A DNA stretch of 40,457 nt. Origin: Microcaldota archaeon. GTDB taxonomy: Archaea; Micrarchaeota; Micrarchaeia; Micrarchaeales; CABMGC01. Made by a program: the position numbers and the translations under genes. Each line of letters opens with the position of its first letter. Position 1 is the stretch's first letter. The stretch is from positions 1 to 40,457 of the forward strand of contig JAJZND010000014.1 of assembly GCA_021848025.1 (NCBI GenBank). Direction: 5' to 3'. The notes beneath the pieces are model-generated. The model ran no database searches, was not told where the DNA came from, and saw nothing but the letters and a program-made list of their open reading frames with translations. Positions 690-38,022 of this stretch are shown piece by piece.

Positions 690-2117
690 ATGTCAGAAGC
701 AAAACCTGTTCATGAGAATATAATACTTGCAGTCATACTCGTAGCCGTGCTGATGGCTGCGATAGACTCTACCATAGTTCTGCTCGCGTTCCCATCCATA
801 GTAACTTCACTGCATTCGAACCTTGCAACAATAATATGGGTTATACTGATATACATGCTGGTTAGCGCGGTTGCAACTACGCAGTTCGGCAAGGTGGGAG
901 ATATATATGGGAGAGCTCGGATATTCATGGCCGGTCTTGCCGTATTTACTGTATCATCATTCCTTTGCGGCATAGCCCCTACAGACGTGTCACTGATTGC
1001 ATTCAGGATTTTGCAGGGAGTGGGAAGTGCGATGATATCGGCAACAAGCGGTGCCATAATAGCAGATACATTTGAGAGACACAGAATAGGAAGAGCGTTC
1101 GGCTTTACTTCCATGGCGTACAACATAGGAGCCATACTCGGCATAGTCCTTGGCGGGATAATAACCACATTCATAGGCTGGCAATATATATTCTTCATAA
1201 ACGTACCAATCGGCATAGTTGCATTGGTCCTTGGAATAAAGTATATATCAGACAAGCAGACTTATGCTGCTAAGCTGGATCTCTCTGGCATGATTACGCT
1301 GGCAGTGGCACTGTCCCTGCTATTGTATGGTGGGATAGGCTATTCTTCTTCAGGCGCTACAGCAGTCAATATCGGGGCGGCCATATCAGGTTTGGTGCTT
1401 CTTATACTCTTTTATTTCATGGAAAAGAAAAGCGAGAGCCCAACAATCCCATTTGATATGTTCAACAACAAGATTTTTCGTAATTCCATATTTGCCGCAC
1501 TTCTGCAGGGTCTTGGATTTCTCGGAGTAGTCTTCATGCTGATAATGTATCTGCAGGGTGTGCGCGGTTTGACACCATTTTATGCTTCTCTGCTCCTTGT
1601 GCCAGGCTATGTTGTCAGCGGTTTAGTTTCTCCATATATGGGCAGGATGTCAGATAGGCATGGCGCCCGGATAGTAGCTACGGCAGGCATAGCACTGCAA
1701 ATACTAGGAGTACTAGTATACTTCTTCCTGAACACATCGTCATCACTATACATCGTCATATTGGGATCACTTATAACCGGAATTGGAGGTGCGATGTTCT
1801 GGCCTGCAAACAGCAGCGCGATTATGGCTCATGCTGAACAGCGCAGATTCGGCATAGCCTCCGGTCTCTCAAGGCTCTTCTCCACGATGGGAATGATGGG
1901 CAGCTTCATAGTTGTATTTGTAGTAGCTTCGCTTTCAATATCGCGTTACCAGGCATTTGAGATTTTTGCCGGCACTTCGGCCAAGCTGACTGGCAGCATT
2001 GCGAATGCATTTGTAGTAGGAATGCATTATTCCTTCGTAGCTATGATAGCAATACTTGCCGTAGCAGGCATAATCTCACTGGCCAGGGGGAAAGAAAATA
2101 GAGCAAATAAAATGTAG
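690..2117 (+). CDS. MFS multidrug efflux transporter (EmrB/QacA-like)
   Basis: 475 aa polytopic protein with MFS motif A-like G(K/R)xGDxxGRxR and the D-S-T-I-V-L TM1 motif. Confidence 0.85.
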   Translation: MSEAKPVHENIILAVILVAVLMAAIDSTIVLLAFPSIVTSLHSNLATIIWVILIYMLVSAVATTQFGKVGDIYGRARIFMAGLAVFTVSSFLCGIAPTDVSLIAFRILQGVGSAMISATSGAIIADTFERHRIGRAFGFTSMAYNIGAILGIVLGGIITTFIGWQYIFFINVPIGIVALVLGIKYISDKQTYAAKLDLSGMITLAVALSLLLYGGIGYSSSGATAVNIGAAISGLVLLILFYFMEKKSESPTIPFDMFNNKIFRNSIFAALLQGLGFLGVVFMLIMYLQGVRGLTPFYASLLLVPGYVVSGLVSPYMGRMSDRHGARIVATAGIALQILGVLVYFFLNTSSSLYIVILGSLITGIGGAMFWPANSSAIMAHAEQRRFGIASGLSRLFSTMGMMGSFIVVFVVASLSISRYQAFEIFAGTSAKLTGSIANAFVVGMHYSFVAMIAILAVAGIISLARGKENRANKM

Positions 2118-2466
2118 CTGCATTGGCCAAATTTACTGAGAAGGCAAGGATACGCGGAGCAGATTTCACAGTAATTCTAGCATATTCCTATTTACCTTAC
2201 CATTTCTTCAGAATCGGCAAGAAGTCTTCGCATAATATACTACAGAGAGCATACTTTTCAATAAAGCTGCTTTAAAAATTGAGTGCTGCACTTGAATCTA
2301 TTTAGACACGCATATATTATTTTGCAATGTAGGACTATATATTCAGATAGAGCATCACTATGAATAAGAAAATAATACAAACTTTATAATATGGAAAGGT
2401 GAAACTACGGCCGAAAAGAAGACTAATGAAAATCTAATACTTCTTATAATAGTAATAGGCACACTG

Positions 2467-3885
2467 ATGGCTTCAATAGATTCGACCATAGTCTTACTCG
2501 CATTTCCCGCTATAACAACAGCACTGCATTCCAATATCTCAACCATAATATGGGTAATATTGATTTACATTATAGTTGTAGCTGTTCTTTCAACACAGCT
2601 TGGAAGGATTGGAGACATTTTCGGCAGATCTAGGATGTTCAATCTGGGTTTTGCGACATTTACTATTGCTTCCTTCCTCTGCGGCATAGCTCCTACCGAC
2701 ATAACCCTCATAATATCCAGGGCACTTCAAGCAGTAGGAGGGGCGCTAATCTCTTCAAACAGCGGTGCCATAATAGCAGATACGTTTGAGAGACACAGGA
2801 TAGGAAGAGCATACGGATTTACAGGAATGAGCTGGAATATAGGCGCGCTTCTTGGAATTGTACTGGGGGGATTTATAACAACATTCATAGGATACAGATA
2901 CATCTTCTTTATAAACGTTCCAATAGGCATAGTTGCAGTTATACTTGGAATAAGATATCTTAAGGATACAGTAAAATCAAAGAAAAATTTTGACCTTTTT
3001 GGAATGAGTACTCTGGGGATTGCAATAGCTTTGATTTCGTACGCAGGAGTAAGCTATGCTTCTGTAGGGCTAAATGCATTAAACATGGGACTCCTTTTGG
3101 TTGGAATAATCTCAGGAATATTATTTATATTTATAGAGAAAAAAGTAAAACTCCCCACTGTTAATTTTTCTATGTTTAAAAATAGGATCTTCAGAAACTC
3201 GCTGATGGCTTCCCTTTTCCAGGGATTAGGCTTTATGGGCGTGACATTCTTGCTGATAATGTATCTTCAAGGAGTAAGAGGATTCACTCCGCTTTATGCT
3301 TCTCTTCTGCTTCTTCCAGGATATGTAGTAAGCTCAATACTCTCTCCCATAATGGGGAGGTATTCTGATAGATATGGGGCTAGATTGCTTTCTACAATAG
3401 GCATAGTTTTTATGATAGCCGGTATTCTTTTTTATATAATGCTTTTAGGGGTATCATCGCCCGTTTACTATATTCTGATAGGTACTATGATAACTGGCTT
3501 TGGAGGCGCGATGTTCTGGCCGGCGAACAACAGCGCAGTTATGGCAAATGTCAGTAACGAAGTCAGAGGCGCAGCTTCAGGAACCCTGAGACTTTTTGGG
3601 AATATGGGCCTTATAGGCAGCTTTGTGATAGCATTTGTAGCGGCTTCCTCTGCAGTTCCGCGATATGTAGCATTTGAGATATTTGTTGGCACATCAAAAG
3701 TCATAGGAGGAATAGGAGGCTCCTTTGTTTATGGAATGAAGATAGCCTTTGTTTCTCTGATAGCGATGCTCTTAATTGCAGGGGTATTCTCGTTAACACG
3801 AGGCAAAGAAGACAGGCACATGCAGCAAGAGCAATCAAGGCAGAAGGAAGGGAAAGGTAAGAGATATAGTAATACGCAAAATTGA
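2467..3885 (+). CDS. MFS multidrug efflux transporter, paralog of the preceding gene; true start probably upstream of 2467
   Basis: High similarity to the 690-2117 product throughout; in-frame coding (…KKTNENLILLIIVIGTLM) continues upstream of the first ATG. Confidence 0.83.
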   Translation: MASIDSTIVLLAFPAITTALHSNISTIIWVILIYIIVVAVLSTQLGRIGDIFGRSRMFNLGFATFTIASFLCGIAPTDITLIISRALQAVGGALISSNSGAIIADTFERHRIGRAYGFTGMSWNIGALLGIVLGGFITTFIGYRYIFFINVPIGIVAVILGIRYLKDTVKSKKNFDLFGMSTLGIAIALISYAGVSYASVGLNALNMGLLLVGIISGILFIFIEKKVKLPTVNFSMFKNRIFRNSLMASLFQGLGFMGVTFLLIMYLQGVRGFTPLYASLLLLPGYVVSSILSPIMGRYSDRYGARLLSTIGIVFMIAGILFYIMLLGVSSPVYYILIGTMITGFGGAMFWPANNSAVMANVSNEVRGAASGTLRLFGNMGLIGSFVIAFVAASSAVPRYVAFEIFVGTSKVIGGIGGSFVYGMKIAFVSLIAMLLIAGVFSLTRGKEDRHMQQEQSRQKEGKGKRYSNTQN

Positions 3886-25834: not shown

Positions 25835-26950
25835 TCATGAAAATTTGGAATTAAGCCTCTTTAGTATCTTGTACTTTTCGCCCTTCTCTATTCTTGCTGC
25901 ATCTATTATGTGATTCATTGTTTCTATCAGCTCATCGTACCCTTTTCGGTTTATCTCGAATGGTATCTTGTCCTTTCCACCGACATTGTACGCAAACGTG
26001 ACTGGATCGCGATATGCAAGCTCCTTTCCGTAAATAAGGCTGGAAACGAAGGCAAGGGAGCGGATTGTGGCTCTACCCACCCCTTTTATCAGAAGAAGGT
26101 CTCTGTAATCCTTAGGGTCCAGCTCTTCGGCCTTCTTTATAACCTCAAGCCCCCTCCTGCCTACATCCACTTTTGCAACTATCCCATGCCTCTCCGGATA
26201 GCTGATCTTTTTCACTATTTTATCATAATCTTTCAGCGCTTCTATGCTCGCCTTTTTTACCCATCCATTCTGGGAATATGTAAGATCCATGGAATTTACA
26301 TGGAGTTCTGAAGAAACGCTTGTATGCGGTTCATTGGTTATGTCGGAGGCGTTTACTGATCCGCTGAACCATTGGAAGCGTATGGCTTTGTTTCCCTCCC
26401 GCGGCATGGCCTGCTGCACTACGGACCACTTCTTGTCGCTGGAGAAAATAAATGAATGATGGTATATGCCTATGTTATCGTATATCATAGACGAATCTAT
26501 CTTGGCAGCGAGGCGGCTGCATTCAGCAAACCTTTCATCCTCTCCCGGGATTGACAGTACATCAGTGCCTGCCTTTATCTCTTCTGGCGTCTTAAGCCCG
26601 GCTTTTCCCTTTCCTCCGGCTATGTATATCGAGCCTGTTGAATTAAGTGCTTCTTTCAGTGCGCCCATGGTCACTGTCGTAGTGCCGCTGCTGTGCCAGT
26701 CATATCCAATCGCGCAGGCAAGCGCCTGAAACCAGTTGCTGTCGCTTAGCCGTGCAACAAGCTCGCCAGGGCCATATTCATCAATTATTACTGTGCATAT
26801 TGCATTGCCAAGCTTTACCATCCTTTGGAAAAGCCATCTGGGCGCTTTGCCTCCATGAAGAGGAAGTTCAGTTGCATAGTGCATGATAGTGACACCGTTT
26901 AGGGCTGAATGTGATTGCTCCGCCTGAATTTGCATGCTTCTTCCCAGCAT
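25835..26950 (-). CDS. DUF763 family protein
   Basis: LPLHGGKAPRWLFQRMVKLG…RHGIVAKVD…LLLIKGVGRATIRSLAFVSSLIYG, characteristic of DUF763; start probably internal. Confidence 0.85.
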   Translation of the reverse strand: MLGRSMQIQAEQSHSALNGVTIMHYATELPLHGGKAPRWLFQRMVKLGNAICTVIIDEYGPGELVARLSDSNWFQALACAIGYDWHSSGTTTVTMGALKEALNSTGSIYIAGGKGKAGLKTPEEIKAGTDVLSIPGEDERFAECSRLAAKIDSSMIYDNIGIYHHSFIFSSDKKWSVVQQAMPREGNKAIRFQWFSGSVNASDITNEPHTSVSSELHVNSMDLTYSQNGWVKKASIEALKDYDKIVKKISYPERHGIVAKVDVGRRGLEVIKKAEELDPKDYRDLLLIKGVGRATIRSLAFVSSLIYGKELAYRDPVTFAYNVGGKDKIPFEINRKGYDELIETMNHIIDAARIEKGEKYKILKRLNSKFS

Positions 26951-29083: not shown

Positions 29084-30640
29084 TTAGTCTGCTATTCCTG
29101 TTTCTCTGCCTGAAATCGCATCAATAGTGAAGATACGCACTTTGCCACCTCCCCTGAGGGTTATTTTATACAGGGGCAGCGAAACCGGCTCGATGCTTAT
29201 TATCGATGATCCAGGGTATAAGTTTGATATGAACTTTTTGACATCCTGCTCTTTTGGCTGATTGCCTATTATCTGTTGTTTGGATACCTTCTTCTCTTCA
29301 AGCAAGGGTTTTTCTCTGATTAAATATCTTCTGTAATCATATGAAACCACGTTATCCTTGATTTCGGTGATGAAGCCTTTGCTCTCCAGCCCGATTATGG
29401 CTTTATCAAATGCCTCGTCATCTAGCTTTGACTGCTTTTGTGCTTTTCTTATGTTGGCTTTCCCTCGTGCTGCAATAACATATAATAACCTGGCCTCGTT
29501 CTCATTTAGCCGTGCATTGCTCTTAAATTTAGGTCTGATGAGTTCAAGTTTTTTATTTACGTTAAGGATACATCCGCTGCTGTTGATTAATACACCGTAT
29601 TCTTTATACTCATTGCGTCTTCCAGTCCCAATCCTGATAGAGCATAATGCCATCTGCAGATACCTGCTCTCTATTGAATCCAAAGACTCTGCTTCCCCTC
29701 CGAATAAAACGAACCTCTTTTTCAGCATCTTTCTGGCGAATGATTCTGCATCCTGCTGTGAAACTTTTGGGAATATCGCATTGACTTTGGTGCTGGCTCC
29801 TATTTCTTTAGGCGTTCTTGGCAGAGTAGGCACTTTATTTTTTTTCTCGAGCTGCTCTACTATGGTACTCATCATTTCACTTGGAGCTTTGTATGTGCCT
29901 ACCAACGGAGTCGAGCCGATGTGTTTGACTAATCTGCTTTTAACAGAAAAAACGCCTTGGTAATCTATGCCAAATGGTATGAACTCCCCTACTTTAAGGT
30001 TTACCAGTTTATTGAGTTCCTGCTTGTTTTCAAATAGTATGTCTACAGCTTTTACATCGTTATTTATGGTAAGTTTACCTATAAAGCCATAGGAGCACTG
30101 GGCAAGAACATTCTTGCTTATATTAGCAGGCCTTTGAGTGGCCACAATAAGGCCTATCCCTCTCTTCCTGCCCCTCACGCTTATCTCTTCAAGCATATTC
30201 CTGGATTTATGCACAACCTGAGGCGCAAGCTTGTCCGCCTCTTCAACTATAACAAGATATGGCCTCCTTACCGCGCTTTCTAATTCATACAGTGAATTCA
30301 ATGCCCTGTCTACCAGATCTTCTTTATCCAAAGCGTCAGATATGTCTAAGACTACAGGGATGTCATTTTGAATGCTTGATGAGAAGAGTTTAGCAAAATC
30401 TATATCGGTTTTTATATCGCCAGTAGTTCCTACAACCAACACTTCAAACATGCTCTTGAGAGAGGAATATTCTCCCTCGGTATCTATAATGCAGAATGGC
30501 GCATGGAGCCGGCAGAGCTCTTCTGCTATAACTCCTATAAGGAACGACTTTCCTGAACCGCTTTGTCCTATCACGCACCCCCTCCCGGTCATAACAGACT
30601 GCAGATCCACATTTACATCTGTTCCGATGTTAAGTTGCAT
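29084..30640 (-). CDS. HerA/DUF87-like ATPase (HerA-FtsK superfamily), divergent from the T4SS-like operon
   Basis: Walker A GQSGSGKSF, IIDTEGEYSSL, Walker B YLVIVEEADKL, RGRKRGIGLIVATQRPANISK sensor segment. Confidence 0.87.
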   Translation of the reverse strand: MQLNIGTDVNVDLQSVMTGRGCVIGQSGSGKSFLIGVIAEELCRLHAPFCIIDTEGEYSSLKSMFEVLVVGTTGDIKTDIDFAKLFSSSIQNDIPVVLDISDALDKEDLVDRALNSLYELESAVRRPYLVIVEEADKLAPQVVHKSRNMLEEISVRGRKRGIGLIVATQRPANISKNVLAQCSYGFIGKLTINNDVKAVDILFENKQELNKLVNLKVGEFIPFGIDYQGVFSVKSRLVKHIGSTPLVGTYKAPSEMMSTIVEQLEKKNKVPTLPRTPKEIGASTKVNAIFPKVSQQDAESFARKMLKKRFVLFGGEAESLDSIESRYLQMALCSIRIGTGRRNEYKEYGVLINSSGCILNVNKKLELIRPKFKSNARLNENEARLLYVIAARGKANIRKAQKQSKLDDEAFDKAIIGLESKGFITEIKDNVVSYDYRRYLIREKPLLEEKKVSKQQIIGNQPKEQDVKKFISNLYPGSSIISIEPVSLPLYKITLRGGGKVRIFTIDAISGRETGIAD

Positions 30641-30713
30641 GTATCCTACTAAGAGTCAAACATCTTTAAGCGTTACTCGGCGCTTTTATGATGCGGATGC
30701 CTCAAAAACGCAA

Positions 30714-30735
30714 GCTTTAAATATTTATTTAAGTA
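30714..30735 (+). promoter_or_regulatory. TATA-like promoter region of the T4SS-like operon
   Basis: gctttaaatatttatttaag ~35-55 bp before the pilin-candidate ATG, in the divergent intergenic region. Confidence 0.4.
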
Positions 30736-30768
30736 TATAATCTTTTACTAAAGTAAATAGTTGGTAAT

Positions 30769-31101
30769 ATGAGTATAAACATATCTACTGGAAATCGGCA
30801 GCTTTATGCGTTTGCCCTATCTTTAGGATTAGTCGCCCTAAACGTCATAAACACGCTTAATTATATACAGAGGGTGCTGGTAAATGTTGGGCCTGTACTG
30901 AGCGCAGTACTTTTTATTCTGGCCGGAGTCTTTTATGCTGTAGGGCAATTATTTCCTTCGACCAAAAGGGCTAATTTCCACAGTGCTGCTATAGATATAA
31001 TAGTTGGAGCGATAGTGGTTGCAGTATTATCTGTAGCATCGACAAGCCTAGCTGTCGCTTCGACTCAGCTTTTAACTAATGTCACAGCTAACACGGTGTA
31101 A
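30769..31101 (+). CDS. VirB2/TrbC-like (CedA1/TedC-like) pilin candidate
   Basis: 110 aa: hydrophobic signal-like segment, TM helix, short basic loop (FPSTKRANFH), second TM helix; first gene before a VirB6-like protein. Confidence 0.55.
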   Translation: MSINISTGNRQLYAFALSLGLVALNVINTLNYIQRVLVNVGPVLSAVLFILAGVFYAVGQLFPSTKRANFHSAAIDIIVGAIVVAVLSVASTSLAVASTQLLTNVTANTV

Positions 31102-31103
31102 AA

Positions 31104-32147
31104 TTGAGTTTCTTGAGTTTCCAGGAGTATTCAATAGTTACATCATTAATAGCAATAATGCTTGCAGTTAGCGGGATATCCTTGGGTTTAGGCTATGCAT
31201 TAAATGAAAAGCGGCTTAAGGATTTTGGAAGGGACTGGATCATCGAATCAGTATTGAATGGCGCCTTGGTAGGGGGGCTAATAATATTATTTTCAAATGG
31301 AGGGATAATAAGCAATATAATATATTCAATCACTGTAAGCAATGGGACAAGTATAAGTTGCCAGAATTTTATGCAAAATAATGCCGCCTTGTGCCTTGCT
31401 TACGACTATTTAGTTGGTACGGGCAGCTATACAGTATTTGGAGTGCAGCATAATTCTGTTCTTACAAGTACAGCAACATTGACAACAGGGCTGTTAGGCA
31501 TAAATGTACTATTGGGTATTATCGGGTCCTTAAACATAGGTTTTGGATTTGTTAATATCTCGTTTAGCTCCCTCGTGATGCCGCTTATGAATGAAATACA
31601 GTACTTTATAAAATTATTAACAACGATTATGATAGGCATAACTGTCCAAGCGGCATTGCTAATAGCCGTATCTACTGCCACTTTGACGCTTATATTGCCT
31701 GCGGGAATAATTGCCAGGTCTTTTTATCCTACAAAAAAAGTCGGAGCATTCCTGCTGGCGCTAGGAATCGGATTATATACTGTTTTTCCACTATCTTATC
31801 TTTTTGATGCCGTATTGGCGAATAATTTATCTTTAAACGTAGAGAGCAGCAGCATTATTCAAATAACAGGCCAGGCGCAAAACCTGCAAAATAGCATGAC
31901 ACAGGCAACAGAATATAGTAATCAAAGCCATGTCGGCACATACATTCAGCCGATAATTAACGCGGCTTCAACTTTAGGCGATTCTATATCAAATATATTG
32001 AGTGGGCTGATTTTAGATGTTTCATACTTCATAATTTACTCCTTTGTCCTTCCAGCATTTAGCTTGGTGGTTACAGGAATTTCAGTTAGGGAGCTTACAC
32101 AGGTTTTAGGAGCAGATGTAAATTTGAACTGGCTTAGCATGCTGTGA
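31104..32147 (+). CDS. VirB6/CedA-like polytopic membrane protein
   Basis: 347 aa, multiple TMs; central TLILPAGIIARSFYPTKKVGAFLLALGIGLYTVFPLSYLF resembles the CedA-type core as I recall it. Confidence 0.55.
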   Translation: MSFLSFQEYSIVTSLIAIMLAVSGISLGLGYALNEKRLKDFGRDWIIESVLNGALVGGLIILFSNGGIISNIIYSITVSNGTSISCQNFMQNNAALCLAYDYLVGTGSYTVFGVQHNSVLTSTATLTTGLLGINVLLGIIGSLNIGFGFVNISFSSLVMPLMNEIQYFIKLLTTIMIGITVQAALLIAVSTATLTLILPAGIIARSFYPTKKVGAFLLALGIGLYTVFPLSYLFDAVLANNLSLNVESSSIIQITGQAQNLQNSMTQATEYSNQSHVGTYIQPIINAASTLGDSISNILSGLILDVSYFIIYSFVLPAFSLVVTGISVRELTQVLGADVNLNWLSML

Positions 32148-32151
32148 CGTT

Positions 32152-32871
32152 ATGGCTGATGAACAATTTGGTAGAAAGGTTTACTCTTATATTTTCTATG
32201 TATTTGCAATTATAGTCTTCTTTACATGCTTGCTTTTAAATCATACGTGGCTTGTTCTGGTATCTTCTGCATTGCTTTTATTAGCTGCCTTATACTTTAA
32301 TAGCGGGCACATAATAAACAATCTTCTAATTAGAAAGTCAAAAATAGTTGAGGTGGCGGGGACACTTAAACTAAGTACAGAAACCAAATCAGTGTTTAGG
32401 AAATTGGGCAGTAAATACGTAAGTTATTCGGTGGCTATTCTCTCTTATGATAGAGGATATAATTTTTCTCAGGAAGCCTTTGCATCCTTTATAAGGAGTA
32501 TAGATGAGCCATTCGAGTTTTCTATAGCACTAGAACAACTAGATACACAAAAACTAATGGAAAACGTTGAGACAAAAATTAGAATGAAGGAACTTAGCCT
32601 AAAGAAAATAGGCTCTGCAAAATATGACCAGATTTCCAGGATAAAGAGAGACATTGACGTATTAAATAATGAACTAGGCCGCCTGCGCGATAATCACAAA
32701 AATTTCAATTTGATCATAAGGCTGAAATCTTATGCAGAATCATACAGCGGCCTTGAGGCTGCAAGAGCTTCTATAAGAAACCTAGAAAAACTATGCATTT
32801 CTTTCTCTTCGTCTTTAGGCGTGAGTTACAGGATAGTGGAGGGAGAAGAACTTTTATGGGTTGCCTGGTGA
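32152..32871 (+). CDS. VirB3-like 2-TM segment plus VirB4 N-terminal-domain-like protein
   Basis: 239 aa: N-terminal TM pair, then FASFIRSIDEPFEFSIALEQLD…RDIDVLNNELGRL…NLIIRLKSYAES…LEKLCISFSSSLGVSYRIVEGEELL, matching VirB4/TraE NTD layout. Confidence 0.55.
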   Translation: MADEQFGRKVYSYIFYVFAIIVFFTCLLLNHTWLVLVSSALLLLAALYFNSGHIINNLLIRKSKIVEVAGTLKLSTETKSVFRKLGSKYVSYSVAILSYDRGYNFSQEAFASFIRSIDEPFEFSIALEQLDTQKLMENVETKIRMKELSLKKIGSAKYDQISRIKRDIDVLNNELGRLRDNHKNFNLIIRLKSYAESYSGLEAARASIRNLEKLCISFSSSLGVSYRIVEGEELLWVAW

Positions 32872-33994
32872 ATATATGGCAAATATTAGTTCTGGAATCT
32901 CCGATATATCAAAATTCTTCGATGTACCTATACTTCAGGAGCCAGATTGCATGCAGTACAGCAAGAATAGCTTACTGTTAGGTTTCTCAGAAGCATTGGC
33001 TGCTCCCATATTCTTGGACTTGAAATCAAAAAATAATCCGCACATCTTTGTAACTGGGATGAGCGGCTCAGGGAAAACATATTTGATGAGAAGTCTTATC
33101 TGCAGGCTTAATCTCATGCTTGATTGCCTCGTCGTTGTTATCGACTTTACAGGAGAATACATGGATCTGGTGTCGTATCTGGGCGAAGTGGAGGCGGGTT
33201 CGGAGAACAGCGAATTTATAGAAAAGGCCGATTCAGGAATTGTTTATTTTAACCTAAGGCAATTTAAAGAAGCTGAAAAAATATTGAAGTGCAAGTTTTT
33301 AATACAGAAACTTCTGGAAAAAATGAGGTCTAGGGCCATTAATGAAGAAAGGCAAATGTTTATACTACTTGATGAGGCTTGGAAGATTTTGGGGGAAGAT
33401 GGAGTACTTGAAGCGATAATTAGAGAGGGCAGGAAGTACAATGTTGGGATAATTTTAGCATCTCAGATAATTGAGGATATTGAGGTTTCTGTGCTATCCA
33501 ATATGGCTACACTCTTTATTTTTAGAATTCAGAATCAAGATAGCTTAAAGCGTCTTTCCAATAACTATGGCATAAGTAAAGCTATGCTCCAAAAAATTCA
33601 GAACTTTTCTGTGGGCCAGTGCCTGCTTATTCATCTGGCGAAGAATGGGGACATCGATTTATTGCCTATCAGGAGGATTTTCGGCATTGATATTCACAGT
33701 ACTTTTAAAATTTGTTTTGGTGATGGAAAAATGGATGTGGTAATTGATGATTTCTGCAAGGAAATCTCTAATCTGTGCAAGAAGGATACCTCTGATCTTG
33801 TTTCTAAGATAAGGAAGGAGAAGTCAATAGGCCTGAGTGAACTAATAAAGGAGTTGTTAACATTGAATGCGGAAAGATATGACTTACTGGCTTACCTTAG
33901 GCAGTTAGGCATAAGTGATTCAGACATAGCAGATGGCTTTTCTATGGCGGTAGAGGGTATTTTAAATGAGAATCGTAAGCTATTCCAAGTTTAA
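32861..33994 (+). CDS. VirB4/CedB-like ATPase (ATPase domain only)
   Basis: Walker A GMSGSGKTYL, VVIDFTGEYMDL, Walker B MFILLDEAWKIL, REGRKYNVGIILASQ; overlaps the preceding ORF. Confidence 0.75.
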   Translation: MPGEYMANISSGISDISKFFDVPILQEPDCMQYSKNSLLLGFSEALAAPIFLDLKSKNNPHIFVTGMSGSGKTYLMRSLICRLNLMLDCLVVVIDFTGEYMDLVSYLGEVEAGSENSEFIEKADSGIVYFNLRQFKEAEKILKCKFLIQKLLEKMRSRAINEERQMFILLDEAWKILGEDGVLEAIIREGRKYNVGIILASQIIEDIEVSVLSNMATLFIFRIQNQDSLKRLSNNYGISKAMLQKIQNFSVGQCLLIHLAKNGDIDLLPIRRIFGIDIHSTFKICFGDGKMDVVIDDFCKEISNLCKKDTSDLVSKIRKEKSIGLSELIKELLTLNAERYDLLAYLRQLGISDSDIADGFSMAVEGILNENRKLFQV

Positions 33995-34649
33995 ACTGTA
34001 TTCGAGGATAAGAATCGATGCAAAATTAACCATAACGCAGGATAAGCTCAGGGAAGAGATTGATTTCTTTCCTTACATGAAATCATTGAAATCTAGAGGG
34101 GAGCTGACGTATTCGATAGAGGTAGCTGGAGCTAGTGATCATGCGTATTTCATAGATTTCCAGAATGATTATATAGAATTCTTAATTTTTTCAGAATCAA
34201 CTCCCCAATTCTTTCTGAGAGATGCCATAATAAAGGTGATTTTGATTTTATCAAACCTGAAATCAGTTTATTCCATAGACTATTCAACTTTACTCCCATA
34301 TATACAGCAGACATTATCCGCCGAACAGATATCTGAAGCTAGGAAAATGGCGGGCAGGTCATCTAATTGCAATAGAGACCTTGATCTGGCCTTTTCTAAG
34401 AGAATAATAGAACTGAAAAGACAAAATTCCGCAGCTATGGAATCATTGCTTTTATCAAATAAGAAAGTGGCAAAACTGTTCTCCGAATTTATAATCCAGA
34501 AGAGCGGCAGCGGGTTTTCTCTAGACTCTGCTGCAAAAGAAAACAATTTAAATGAGGCTGAATTGAATGAAGCAGTTGCATATCTGGAAAGCCGTGGATA
34601 CAAAATTTCTAAGCACGGAAACGATCGTATAAATCTGGTGAAAGCATGA
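33966..34649 (+). CDS. T4SS-operon protein of unknown function, winged-helix-like C-terminus
   Basis: 227 aa, overlaps flanking genes at both ends; no recognised family. Confidence 0.6.
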   Translation: MRIVSYSKFKLYSRIRIDAKLTITQDKLREEIDFFPYMKSLKSRGELTYSIEVAGASDHAYFIDFQNDYIEFLIFSESTPQFFLRDAIIKVILILSNLKSVYSIDYSTLLPYIQQTLSAEQISEARKMAGRSSNCNRDLDLAFSKRIIELKRQNSAAMESLLLSNKKVAKLFSEFIIQKSGSGFSLDSAAKENNLNEAELNEAVAYLESRGYKISKHGNDRINLVKA

Positions 34650-35245
34650 TGCTTATATTCCTACCTTTTGCAAAAGAGTTTTTGATACTAGGGGCGGGTT
34701 TACTTTTGATGTTCGTAACAAGAAAATTATCCAAAAGGGCACAGAAATTTGCCATATATGTGGACACCGATACGCTATTTTATAATGATAATCATCTCTT
34801 AATTCAGGAAGGCAGCTATCCGCTGCCTGCTAGATACAATGAATTGACTCTTGGCGGGTTAGATGGTAAATCCGAGATTTTAGGCGCAGATATCTTAGAT
34901 ATTGCAGATATGAAAGTTGATGAGCAGGTATGGAATGGATATTTTTTGAAAAGCGACTTGTTCTACAATGCCGTTTTTGAAAGAATTGCTAGAGACATGT
35001 TGATAACAAAAGGAAAGTTAAATAGGACACATTTAACTGGGGATGGGAAGTTGCAGAAACTTCCAAAAAAAGTTAGTATTTATAACATCTCCCAGATTCA
35101 CATGCTAAAGTTGGACGAAAACGATAAGGTATCTATTCTTCCGAGTAGCTTTGACCTGTTCTTGGAGAAACTGATTTTTTGTGGCAAGTCTTCAATTATT
35201 AATTGGTATTTTTACTCTGTTCAAGGAACGTTTTTGAATGGTTGA
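34646..35245 (+). CDS. single-TM protein with soluble domain, T4SS operon
   Basis: 199 aa, N-terminal TM then RKLSKRAQK (positive-inside), ATGA overlap with the upstream gene. Confidence 0.6.
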   Translation: MMLIFLPFAKEFLILGAGLLLMFVTRKLSKRAQKFAIYVDTDTLFYNDNHLLIQEGSYPLPARYNELTLGGLDGKSEILGADILDIADMKVDEQVWNGYFLKSDLFYNAVFERIARDMLITKGKLNRTHLTGDGKLQKLPKKVSIYNISQIHMLKLDENDKVSILPSSFDLFLEKLIFCGKSSIINWYFYSVQGTFLNG

Positions 35246-35250
35246 TTTTG

Positions 35251-35451
35251 ATGGGACTGGTGCTTGACTTTTTATTGCTAATTATCAGGATAAGCGGGGT
35301 GCTTTCCAGCTTTATAATAGACCTTTTGATTGTGGGCTATTTTATTTCAAGGCCAAAAAATGTTAATCCGATATTGATTAGGTCCCTTTACGGGTTTCTT
35401 GCTCTCTTTTTGGTAACAATATGCACTATGGTGATTTTACCTCTAAAATAG
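35251..35451 (+). CDS. small two-TM membrane protein
   Basis: Hydrophobic ORF; start set at the downstream ATG to reduce overlap (longest ORF starts 35203). Confidence 0.5.
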   Translation: MGLVLDFLLLIIRISGVLSSFIIDLLIVGYFISRPKNVNPILIRSLYGFLALFLVTICTMVILPLK

Positions 35452-35717
35452 ATATAATTTATAGAAGGAGCTTCCGGGTAAACAATGCATTTTACAGTGC
35501 CATTGCGTCTGCAGGAATTGCAGCTTCCATTGCCACAACAATAATAGCATTAGGTGTATCTGCGTATTATGCAATAGAATTATTTTGTATATGGAGTCTA
35601 GTATTTTCACTTGTTTTATTCTATTTTTCGAGATTTTTTATAGCCGAAAATAGAATTATGCTACTGTGCCTTGTCAATATTCTCATAGCATTATTTAGCG
35701 TGCGCATTTTCTGGTGA
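35421..35717 (+). CDS. small membrane protein (VirB3-like candidate)
   Basis: 98 aa, about three hydrophobic segments, directly upstream of the second VirB4/HerA-like ATPase. Confidence 0.5.
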   Translation: MHYGDFTSKIDIIYRRSFRVNNAFYSAIASAGIAASIATTIIALGVSAYYAIELFCIWSLVFSLVLFYFSRFFIAENRIMLLCLVNILIALFSVRIFW

Positions 35718-35730
35718 TCGTACGGATTGT

Positions 35731-37905
35731 TTGATTCCTTATAAAATAATTTCAATACCGGAAAATCTCGATAAAAGGCTTTTCTTAGAATCGATGCTGT
35801 CAGATGGATTTTTACTATATTACGATTTCTTTAACTCAAGCTTGCTGATCTTTGTACGTGATAAAGAGGAGATATCCAGACTAGCAAAGGCATTTGATGG
35901 GTTACTATTTGAAATAGCAGATTGTGAGCCCGAATTGTCAGATTTGGAATATATTACATTTTACGGATCTTCTGAAGATGTACTAGGCACAAGTAATATT
36001 TGTAGAATATTTGAAGGATTTAAAGGGGGCTTATTTTTATCATTCTCCAGAGCGGACTCTATGCACATAAGGCAGATAAAATCAAAAATTGAAAAGCTTA
36101 TGAGCGATAAAGGGGTTAGAATCACCAAAAATGCTGATAGGAATATTTTAGGGTATGGTGGCCATTCTGAACAAAAGGACCTTTATTACGATTCGGAAGA
36201 AAGAAAGATTTACCTTTCAATACTTGATAATCTGGATGAAATATCTTTGAGCAACGGTTTGTCATATAAGGTTTCGATAATATTAAACGGAAATATAGAG
36301 AAATCGATAAGGTACCTCGAGTCTAGGTCTTTCATATTTGAGCACTTTAAGATAACTGCAAGAGATATTGCTTCTCTATTTGACATTGCAAAGAAGACAG
36401 ATGCAATGCCTTTTTCGTATAACTTGGCAGCTGGGTTTTGGGGCTTTCCTGAATCAGTAAAGAGAGAGCACATTATAGAAACGTATAATAAAAAATATGA
36501 AGGCGACTTGCTATTAGGAAAGTGCTTGCACAATTCAGCAAATGAGACTGAAAATAGCTTCTTATTGAGCAGTTCTACGCTAAATTTAGGCACTCTTATG
36601 ACAGGGATGCCTGGAACCGGTAAGACAATGGCTGCAATGAACCTTATATTGCAGATTAAAATGCATGCCTGTAAGCATGTAATAATAGTGTCTCCTACAG
36701 AGGAGTGGTCTGCATTTGGAGCGGAAAATGGAATACAAGTAGTGAACTTGTCCGATGAAAGGCTGAGGATAAATTTCTTTAAGTGCGAGAAGGAACATGA
36801 TATAATTAGATTTTATGAAAATCTGGCAATGCTCTTATCCTCTGCCTCTGATGCCGGACCGTATAAAAGTTCGATGGAGAAGTGCTTACTAGATGCTTTT
36901 AGCAGAATTTATAATGACAATCCAGATCCGGATCCCCAGGAGGTTTATTTTGCAATAGAAGAATCAGTAATAGAACAACATGGGAAAAAGACGCATACAG
37001 GAGTAAAATACACAAAGCATGGAGAGAATATAAAAGCGGCACTGGAAAGCCTCAGACTTATGCTTTTAAAACCACAATTTGCTTATAATGGGGGCTTAAA
37101 TTTTAGCGAGCTGATGAACGAGGGGGTTATTTTTGATCTTTCGCATGTAAGCAACACCATGAAACCATTCTTTTACGCTATGATACTTAATAAGATATAC
37201 GAATTTAGCGATTCATTGGATGTTTATGGTGATAGCAAGCTAAGAATGGTTATAGGGATAGAGGAAGCGCAGTTGATTTTTGAGAATAGCGAAAAATCCG
37301 CTGCGACTACCGACTTAAAGCAGAGAATTCAGGATTTCAGGAAAAAAGGGGTGGGATTGCTATTGATTACCCATGCCGTAACTGACATAAATGTGAGCAT
37401 ACGTAGACTATGTCAAACTAAGTTTTATTTCAGACAGAGCGCAGAGACAGCGAAAGCTGCAGCATCGGACCTGATCTTCAATGAAGACAGATTAGACCAG
37501 GTTATCGATAAGTTGAAGACCATGGGGCAGAAGATCTGTGCGGTAAATTGCATTATCGAAACTCTGGCCGGTAAAACTCCTGACAACTCAGTCTTCATTA
37601 AAACTTCAGATTTCCAGGTTCCTGTAGTAGATTTACAAAAAACGTATAAAAAACATAAAAGAAGAATGGGAAATACAATAGTTAAGATACTTATCCAGAA
37701 TATGCCTGCCAGTGGCATTAAGGCTGAAATCAGATATATAGGTATGCCCATCTTTAAAGGGGAAACAAGTATAGGAGGTATTATATCCACTAACAGGCCG
37801 CTGAAAGACAAGAAGCTTGAATTTATCATATTGAAAGAGAGGGCAAAGGATTGTAAGCATTTTAATATAGTGGGAGGCAGCGAGAGCATAATAAAGATGG
37901 ATTAG
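35731..37905 (+). CDS. second VirB4/HerA-like ATPase (TTG start)
   Basis: 724 aa; Walker A GMPGTGKTMAAM, VIIVSPTEEW, Walker B RMVIGIEEAQLIF, IQDFRKKGVGLLLITHAVTDI; ~250-aa N-terminal domain. Confidence 0.77.
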   Translation: MIPYKIISIPENLDKRLFLESMLSDGFLLYYDFFNSSLLIFVRDKEEISRLAKAFDGLLFEIADCEPELSDLEYITFYGSSEDVLGTSNICRIFEGFKGGLFLSFSRADSMHIRQIKSKIEKLMSDKGVRITKNADRNILGYGGHSEQKDLYYDSEERKIYLSILDNLDEISLSNGLSYKVSIILNGNIEKSIRYLESRSFIFEHFKITARDIASLFDIAKKTDAMPFSYNLAAGFWGFPESVKREHIIETYNKKYEGDLLLGKCLHNSANETENSFLLSSSTLNLGTLMTGMPGTGKTMAAMNLILQIKMHACKHVIIVSPTEEWSAFGAENGIQVVNLSDERLRINFFKCEKEHDIIRFYENLAMLLSSASDAGPYKSSMEKCLLDAFSRIYNDNPDPDPQEVYFAIEESVIEQHGKKTHTGVKYTKHGENIKAALESLRLMLLKPQFAYNGGLNFSELMNEGVIFDLSHVSNTMKPFFYAMILNKIYEFSDSLDVYGDSKLRMVIGIEEAQLIFENSEKSAATTDLKQRIQDFRKKGVGLLLITHAVTDINVSIRRLCQTKFYFRQSAETAKAAASDLIFNEDRLDQVIDKLKTMGQKICAVNCIIETLAGKTPDNSVFIKTSDFQVPVVDLQKTYKKHKRRMGNTIVKILIQNMPASGIKAEIRYIGMPIFKGETSIGGIISTNRPLKDKKLEFIILKERAKDCKHFNIVGGSESIIKMD

Positions 37906-37949: not shown

Positions 37950-38022
37950 TAGTCCCGGCCAGATTCGAACTGGCGTACACGGGTCCAAAGCCCGTGGTCC
38001 TTGGCCACTAGACGACGGGACT
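37950..38022 (-). tRNA. tRNA-Gln (anticodon TTG)
   Basis: Reverse strand: AGTCCCG/CGGGACT acceptor, anticodon arm ACGGG-CTTTGGA-CCCGT, T arm GCCAG-TTCGAAT-CTGGC. Confidence 0.93.

Follow-up and report, generated by a model that had tools for sequence, protein, structure and literature searches.

We analyzed a 40,457-nucleotide stretch of DNA (the window), which is the entire 40.5-kb contig JAJZND010000014.1 (C5) of the 1.05-Mb genome of a Microcaldota archaeon; the nearest named records of this genome are Candidatus Micrarchaeota metagenome-assembled genomes and a few bins labelled Marsarchaeota. Nine open reading frames (ORFs) packed on the + strand at 30769-37905 are best explained as a domesticated translocator of the type IV secretion system (T4SS) type, related to the bacterial DNA-transfer machine, and we give this explanation a probability of about three in four. 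Judged from sequence, a machine of this type appears to be carried by nearly every micrarchaeal genome examined.

A conserved operon with a four-gene core

A sequence-only reading of the window had proposed a tightly overlapping operon at this place, and all of the ORFs indeed lie where it had put them, with intergenic gaps of 2, 4 and 13 bases and gene overlaps of 11, 29, 4, 43 and 31 bases. The ratio of nonsynonymous to synonymous substitutions (dN/dS) against a congener is 0.06-0.36 for the nine genes, most values being similar to those of neighbouring genes, and all nine evolve under purifying selection. A synteny search in other Micrarchaeota genomes came out in favour of a conserved unit as well: the order of a pilin gene, a gene for a polytopic protein of 347 amino acids (aa), a 239-aa gene and a P-loop ATPase gene is unbroken in 36 of 36 loci from two families (f1 and f2) of one micrarchaeal order, a recurrence far beyond chance, and the protein families themselves are phylum-wide. 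The 227-aa gene comes next after the core in 30 of the 36 loci, an ortholog of the large ATPase is found in 22 of the 36 and the 199-aa family in 18. Some loci, such as those of one genus (L037-L039) and the divergent L067, hold little beyond pilin, polytopic protein, 239-aa protein and ATPase, and this four-gene core is taken as the minimum. Strong matches (E<1e-15) to the 347-aa protein occur in 91 of 119 related genomes, its own genome included. The convergent gene just downstream is the archaeal Nre gene in 11 loci spanning both families, which points to a shared chromosomal site, and family f1 is monophyletic in a concatenated tree (support 0.92). Therefore, the locus is old, chromosomal, vertically inherited and sometimes lost, which fits domestication.

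The identity of the 239-aa protein could be approached only through its predicted structure, since single-protein as well as family-wide sequence scans were empty and no recognisable sequence relatives exist outside the phylum, within which a profile search finds the family in 268 of 303 genomes. The AlphaFold2 model (predicted local distance difference test score, pLDDT, 83; predicted template modelling score 0.60) consists of two transmembrane (TM) helices and an alpha/beta domain. When the model was compared with the PDB by Foldseek, each of the 12 best matches was a T4SS chain from an R388 TrwK/VirB4 complex (best E 3.4e-4, probability 1.00), with modest TM-scores of 0.32-0.41 of the query, and VirB4 is the sole significant fold match. 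In addition, the best hhalign match of the pooled family is weak and collinear with VirB4 residues 236-355, just before the ATPase (1.5%, not significant alone). The model thus agrees with the proposal that a 2-TM protein carries a domain resembling the VirB4 N-terminal domain (NTD), with this predicted VirB4-NTD-like fold encoded apart from the ATPase. Because VirB3 of R388 contributes a hairpin of two TM helices that is wrapped onto the VirB4 NTD (PMC9259494), we read the 239-aa protein as a putative VirB3-NTD fusion, in which the hairpin would represent VirB3; hhalign sequence profiles gave no VirB3 match for it.

The pilin had been recognised from its layout as pilin-like, and the majority of its homologs match the Pfam models PF04956 (TrbC/VirB2; 27 of 37, best 4.1e-5) and PF18895 (T4SS_pilin; 26 of 37, best 4.1e-7), whereas the window pilin alone gives a weak match (0.0079), under the Pfam gathering cut-offs. 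A hydrophobic N-terminal segment precedes TM1 in 33 of the 37 pilins, and many of these segments end, by eye, in A-x-A-like motifs; signal-like N-termini are likewise found in VirB2 and in TedC, a VirB2-like pilin with a signal peptide (PMC9905601). VirB2 was the best of nine VirB profiles compared with the pilin in hhalign, but with 11% only. These matches assign the pilin to the VirB2 family; a profile search detects the pilin in 217 of the 303 phylum genomes.

The assignment of the 377-aa ATPase as CedB/CedD/VirB4-like was supported by NCBIfam and hhalign. All 37 homologs match the CedB model (best 1e-22), 34 of 37 the CedD model (7.9e-27) and 36 of 37 TIGR00929 (VirB4_CagE); with CedB, the window protein reaches 65 bits, a long way under the equivalog cut-off of 700. 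The hhalign value for the ATPase region of plasmid VirB4 is 97.9%, and there is a further match to the Thermococcus nautili 33-3 plasmid. Nearly all members of the family also match HerA models, and the best PDB sequence matches are HerA structures, including anti-phage ones (8e-24), compared with 4.6e-13 for the VirB4-like 4ag5. The 724-aa ATPase belongs to a family (A6) of 23 members that are 29-92% identical to the window copy. Its hhalign matches to the 377-aa ATPase (P=97.8%) and to VirB4 (93.2%), together with weak CedD and CD1110-VirB4 matches, make it a candidate second motor or coupling ATPase, which could be VirD4- or CedD-like. A comparison of its N-terminus with the 239-aa protein, modelled on the sharing seen in CedB and CedD, gave no match, and a viral scan with this ATPase was empty.

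The family of the polytopic protein was found by profile in 265 of the 303 phylum genomes, paralogs included, and R218, R224, G227 and P242 (model numbering) are 95-99% conserved across 196 of its members. The AlphaFold2 model of the window protein is only fair (pLDDT 75). Kinship of the pilin with the polytopic protein, as reported for CedA/CedA1 and VirB2/VirB6, was sought and none was detected; neither viral contigs nor plasmids yielded a relative of the polytopic protein when scanned.

Proposed mechanism and accessory genes

In the mechanism we propose, the pilin would form a VirB2/TedC-like pilus or conduit and the polytopic protein a membrane channel or platform, to which the 239-aa protein, with its VirB3-like hairpin and its VirB4-NTD piece, would anchor the separate VirB4/CedB-like ATPase; two polypeptides would thereby reconstitute VirB3-VirB4. 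The substrate would most probably be DNA, exchanged with kin or with a partner (host) archaeon, and may be fed in or pulled by the 724-aa ATPase and the 227-aa protein, a probable helix-turn-helix (HTH) protein. We favour DNA because both ATPases belong to a DNA-motor superfamily, an HTH-like protein accompanies them, and the Ced and Ted systems, which are the functional precedents, move DNA (PMC9905601, PMC11868833). The channel role, pilus assembly, direction of transport and partner are likewise what we infer. In the literature consulted, the archaeal relatives of T4SS come from Thermoproteota and a few plasmids.

Single-protein Pfam and NCBIfam scans were near-empty for the 347-, 239-, 227- and 199-aa proteins, so that family-wide scans were needed. 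For the 227-aa protein, the latter gave weak and scattered HTH matches in a few homologs; the C-terminal HTH is probable and the protein a possible DNA-binding adaptor. It matches neither the 239-aa protein nor the N-terminus of the 724-aa ATPase, and a relative occurs in the phylum-wide locus described below. The 199-aa protein has no Pfam or NCBIfam match and is conserved mainly in family f1; basic residues after its TM segment suggest a cytoplasmic domain. The sequences of the 82- and 98-aa proteins are conserved only within the genus, and similar-sized small TM ORFs take their place in several loci. The HerA-like protein encoded upstream matches DUF87 (8.1e-12) and TrmB (8e-4). Apart from the window, its gene stands in this place only in the congener (G001, L036); as it is not conserved beyond the genus, we take it as a neighbour, and its role as a component of the operon is not supported.

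Table 1. Genes of the operon and the divergent upstream neighbour (window coordinates).
Feature	Position	Strand	Description
Pilin	30769-31101	+	VirB2/TedC-type; signal-like N-terminus, two TM helices, basic loop between (PSTKRA)
Polytopic 347-aa membrane protein	31104-32147	+	VirB6/CedA position; founder query of the 'B6' family
239-aa protein	32152-32871	+	Two N-terminal TM helices (VirB3-like position) and VirB4-NTD-like predicted fold
377-aa P-loop ATPase	32861-33994	+	VirB4/CedB-like, Walker A GMSGSGKT, without a VirB4 NTD of its own
227-aa soluble protein	33966-34649	+	Variable N-terminal domain, probable C-terminal HTH
199-aa protein	34646-35245	+	One N-terminal TM (topology by eye)
82-aa small multi-TM protein	35203-35451	+	
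98-aa small multi-TM protein	35421-35717	+	
724-aa large P-loop ATPase	35731-37905	+	HerA/VirB4/CedD superfamily, Walker A GMPGTGKT, N-terminal ~260 aa unclassified
HerA-like 518-aa ATPase with TrmB-like HTH	29084-30640	-	Divergent upstream neighbour

The GC content of the operon is 37.4% and that of the remaining window 45.4%. A tRNA-Gln gene lies on the other strand at 37950-38022, 45 bases downstream of the operon; no sign of integration was found there. Near the operon, an ORF at 25835-26950 was labelled by eye as topoisomerase VI subunit A, and subunit B (PF09239, 4.8e-48) is encoded at L055:16432-18141, beside the six-gene locus of the same genome that is described in the next section; topoisomerase VI genes are thus near both T4SS-like loci. 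At the far end of the window (690-3885), two adjacent and similar genes for major-facilitator-type transporters (475 and 472 aa) seem to be a tandem duplication.

A larger phylum-wide locus with six-gene arrays

The notion of a minimal T4SS operon is partly supported, with the addition that the operon is at the same time the small paralog of a larger phylum-wide locus. This second locus supplies many of the phylum-wide polytopic, 239-aa and pilin matches and contains pilin-like genes, polytopic genes, one or two paralogs of the 239-aa gene and a VirB4-like ATPase of ~480-530 aa, often accompanied by proteins of ~100 and ~135 aa, an HTH protein resembling the 227-aa protein and a 2-TM protein of ~780-880 aa. 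Its ATPase matches 2,711 plasmid records, 2,421 of them conjugative. The copy of the window genome is on another contig (G000:C31, locus L055), with a six-gene array at L055:1446-8919.

The polytopic genes of this locus stand in tandem, six per array in 30 of 30 arrays examined from 16 families (among them L055, L239-L258, L191, L200-L203, L205 and L224). Six genes were counted directly in 27 arrays and in two more (L224 and L244) after restoring a gene dropped by the overlap filter; the remaining array (L240) has five genes and a sixth match that is truncated where the contig ends. In families other than f1, f2 and f15 the array frequently stands as a locus of its own; two arrays are present in many genomes, and duplication of whole arrays is common. 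In a tree of 179 array members, 178 have their nearest other-family neighbour at the same array position, compared with a mean of 30 and a maximum of 49 in 1,000 within-array label shuffles. Positions 1, 2, 5 and 6 are single clades with every sampled member (support 0.855 for position 2, 0.587 for 5 and 0.97 for 6; no value was given for the clade of position 1), and positions 3 and 4 each split into two clades. The single-copy polytopic genes, that of the window included, form one clade among those of the arrays. An earlier tree of nine arrays had misplaced positions 1 and 6 of f1, probably owing to long branches, which was resolved with 30 arrays.

The position-matched neighbours show that the set of six is older than the split between the sampled families; in the arrays seen, no member has gone missing or been swapped. 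The arrays therefore imply six subunits that are ancient, fixed in their order and not interchangeable, and the six proteins possibly form one hetero-hexameric ring or pore. At somewhat less than even odds, we propose a T4SS-derived machine whose channel would be an obligate hetero-hexamer of six paralogs and whose VirB4 would be split into a VirB3-NTD protein and a free ATPase, with the operon of the window as a compact version with one channel gene.

Several variants of these loci were noted. A second type of array has a much larger third gene (664-1,351 aa; L242, L244, L246, L248, L250, L252, L254 and L258), which probably carries a big inserted domain. In many families the ~780-880-aa two-TM protein closes the phylum-wide locus (L055:13921-16335; ends of L215, L217-L222 and L224); it is a candidate adhesin or tip, and the copy in the window genome has no Pfam match. 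Three tandem pilin-like genes are located directly upstream of the 239-aa and ATPase genes at L219:6822-8053 and L220:292-1551, and L187, L188, L192, L193 and L195 combine a short pilin (81-91 aa) and a polytopic gene with no detectable adjoining 239-aa gene.

Alternative explanations

Several observations weigh against a translocator of the T4SS type. About one quarter of the genomes of the order lack the system, which is therefore not essential everywhere. Of the VirB6-like protein that the sequence-only reading had postulated, position and topology stand, but no homology could be shown: Pfam, NCBIfam, PDB sequence and Foldseek searches as well as hhalign with eight plasmid VirB6 sequences gave no match. 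The 347-aa protein is VirB6-like by position, topology and company alone, and homology is unproven; the homology of TedA and CedA was itself detected only via deep profile-profile comparison (PMC9905601). VirB5, 7, 8, 9, 10 and 11 were not recognised in the operon, VirB8 having been compared by hhalign alone, and the search for a relaxase, confined to Pfam and NCBIfam scans of the operon proteins, revealed none. In their P-loop domains the ATPases also resemble HerA, a family comparably close to the 377-aa ATPase. Finally, the flanks carry the DNA-repair-associated Nre gene but nothing that names the substrate.

A serious alternative is a T4SS relative that mainly serves attachment to, protein delivery into or metabolite uptake from a host archaeon and not DNA exchange, as has been proposed for Patescibacteria, which we consider possible, if less probable than the translocator outlined above. 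ARMAN/Micrarchaeota touch Thermoplasmatales via pili-like structures and depend on them (PMC5498576), and Patescibacteria, which are episymbionts with small genomes as well, have T4SS in most genomes, with virB6 and prgI essential for epibiont growth (PMC12102498). The near-universal presence of the kit in the phylum is likewise expected of a lifestyle trait. However, both ATPases are closest to the DNA-moving motors HerA, CedB and VirB4, the operon includes a gene for a probable HTH protein and Nre often adjoins it. Host interaction and DNA transfer may also coexist.

It is improbable that the operon encodes a membrane-anchored HerA-type complex for defence or DNA repair and no transporter, as one could suppose from the HerA matches of the 377-aa ATPase, the HerA-like gene upstream and Nre downstream in 11 loci: the VirB2-family pilin, the polytopic protein and the VirB4-NTD-like membrane protein always accompany the ATPase, and Pfam and NCBIfam scans of the operon proteins (the PADLOC library was not run) revealed no NurA-type or other nuclease partner. 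Least probable of all is a recent mobile element such as a conjugative plasmid, an integrative and conjugative element or a virus remnant, which the low GC content (37.4% versus 45.4%) and the tRNA-Gln gene 45 bases downstream could indicate. We dropped this reading since the locus sits at one chromosomal site in both families and the tree follows the families; purifying selection, the empty viral and plasmid scans for the polytopic protein and the absence of a recognised integrase or relaxase also speak against it.

Significance

The proposed translocator bears on the ways in which DPANN archaea that depend on hosts exchange DNA, proteins or metabolites with their neighbours, and its occurrence in nearly all of these small genomes (0.5-2 Mb) speaks for a central role in the lifestyle. 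With a minimal core of four genes, and with VirB4 divided between an NTD protein anchored in the membrane and a separate ATPase, the operon indicates how little such a machine may need. If the arrays build one ring, they would be a rare record of a homo-oligomeric pore becoming a hetero-hexamer. The system is a testable target for micrarchaeal co-cultures. We found no published description of the operon or of the six-gene arrays in the PubMed Central (PMC) literature, a search that leaves out subscription papers and preprints and does not establish priority; the only PMC paper with both Micrarchaeota and T4SS is unrelated.

Comparison with known systems

HerA-NurA repair and defence ATPases share the P-loop superfamily with the ATPases described here and differ from them in that the latter have membrane and pilin partners and no recognised nuclease. 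The giant proteins of nanohaloarchaea, which have VirB4-like domains, represent a separate case (PMC10266531). The T4SS of Patescibacteria (Candidate Phyla Radiation) is comparable in being near-universal in an ultrasmall, host-dependent lineage and in its VirB2-like pilins, but it is bacterial, with a VirB4 within the MPF_FATA clade, and the available text of the report mentions neither a split VirB4 nor a six-gene array (PMC12102498).

The Ced system of Sulfolobales (CedA, CedA1, CedB, CedD and CedE), like Ted a system for DNA-damage-induced import of chromosomal DNA, also has two ATPases, and among named models those of CedB and CedD fit the ATPase found here best. Ced shares pieces of the VirB4 NTD between proteins (PMC11868833); in CedB and CedD, however, an NTD is fused to each ATPase, whereas it is a protein of its own in the micrarchaeal operon. 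Ted of Thermoproteales (TedC/TedA/TedB) is likewise chromosomal and consists of a VirB2-like pilin with a signal peptide, followed directly by a polytopic protein, and a VirB4-type ATPase, commonly with HerA genes nearby (PMC9905601). The likeness is one of layout, and the system described here differs by its split VirB4, its second large ATPase and its occurrence in a different phylum.

The VirB/Trw system of R388 provides the VirB4 fold match of the 239-aa protein and, with the VirB3 TM hairpin placed on the VirB4 NTD, the arrangement that this protein may reproduce in one chain (PMC9259494). VirB6 of R388 is a homopentamer (PMC9259494), whereas the paralogous locus of Micrarchaeota has six different genes; a hetero-hexameric channel, if true, would match the six-fold ATPase, unlike the five-fold VirB6 of R388.

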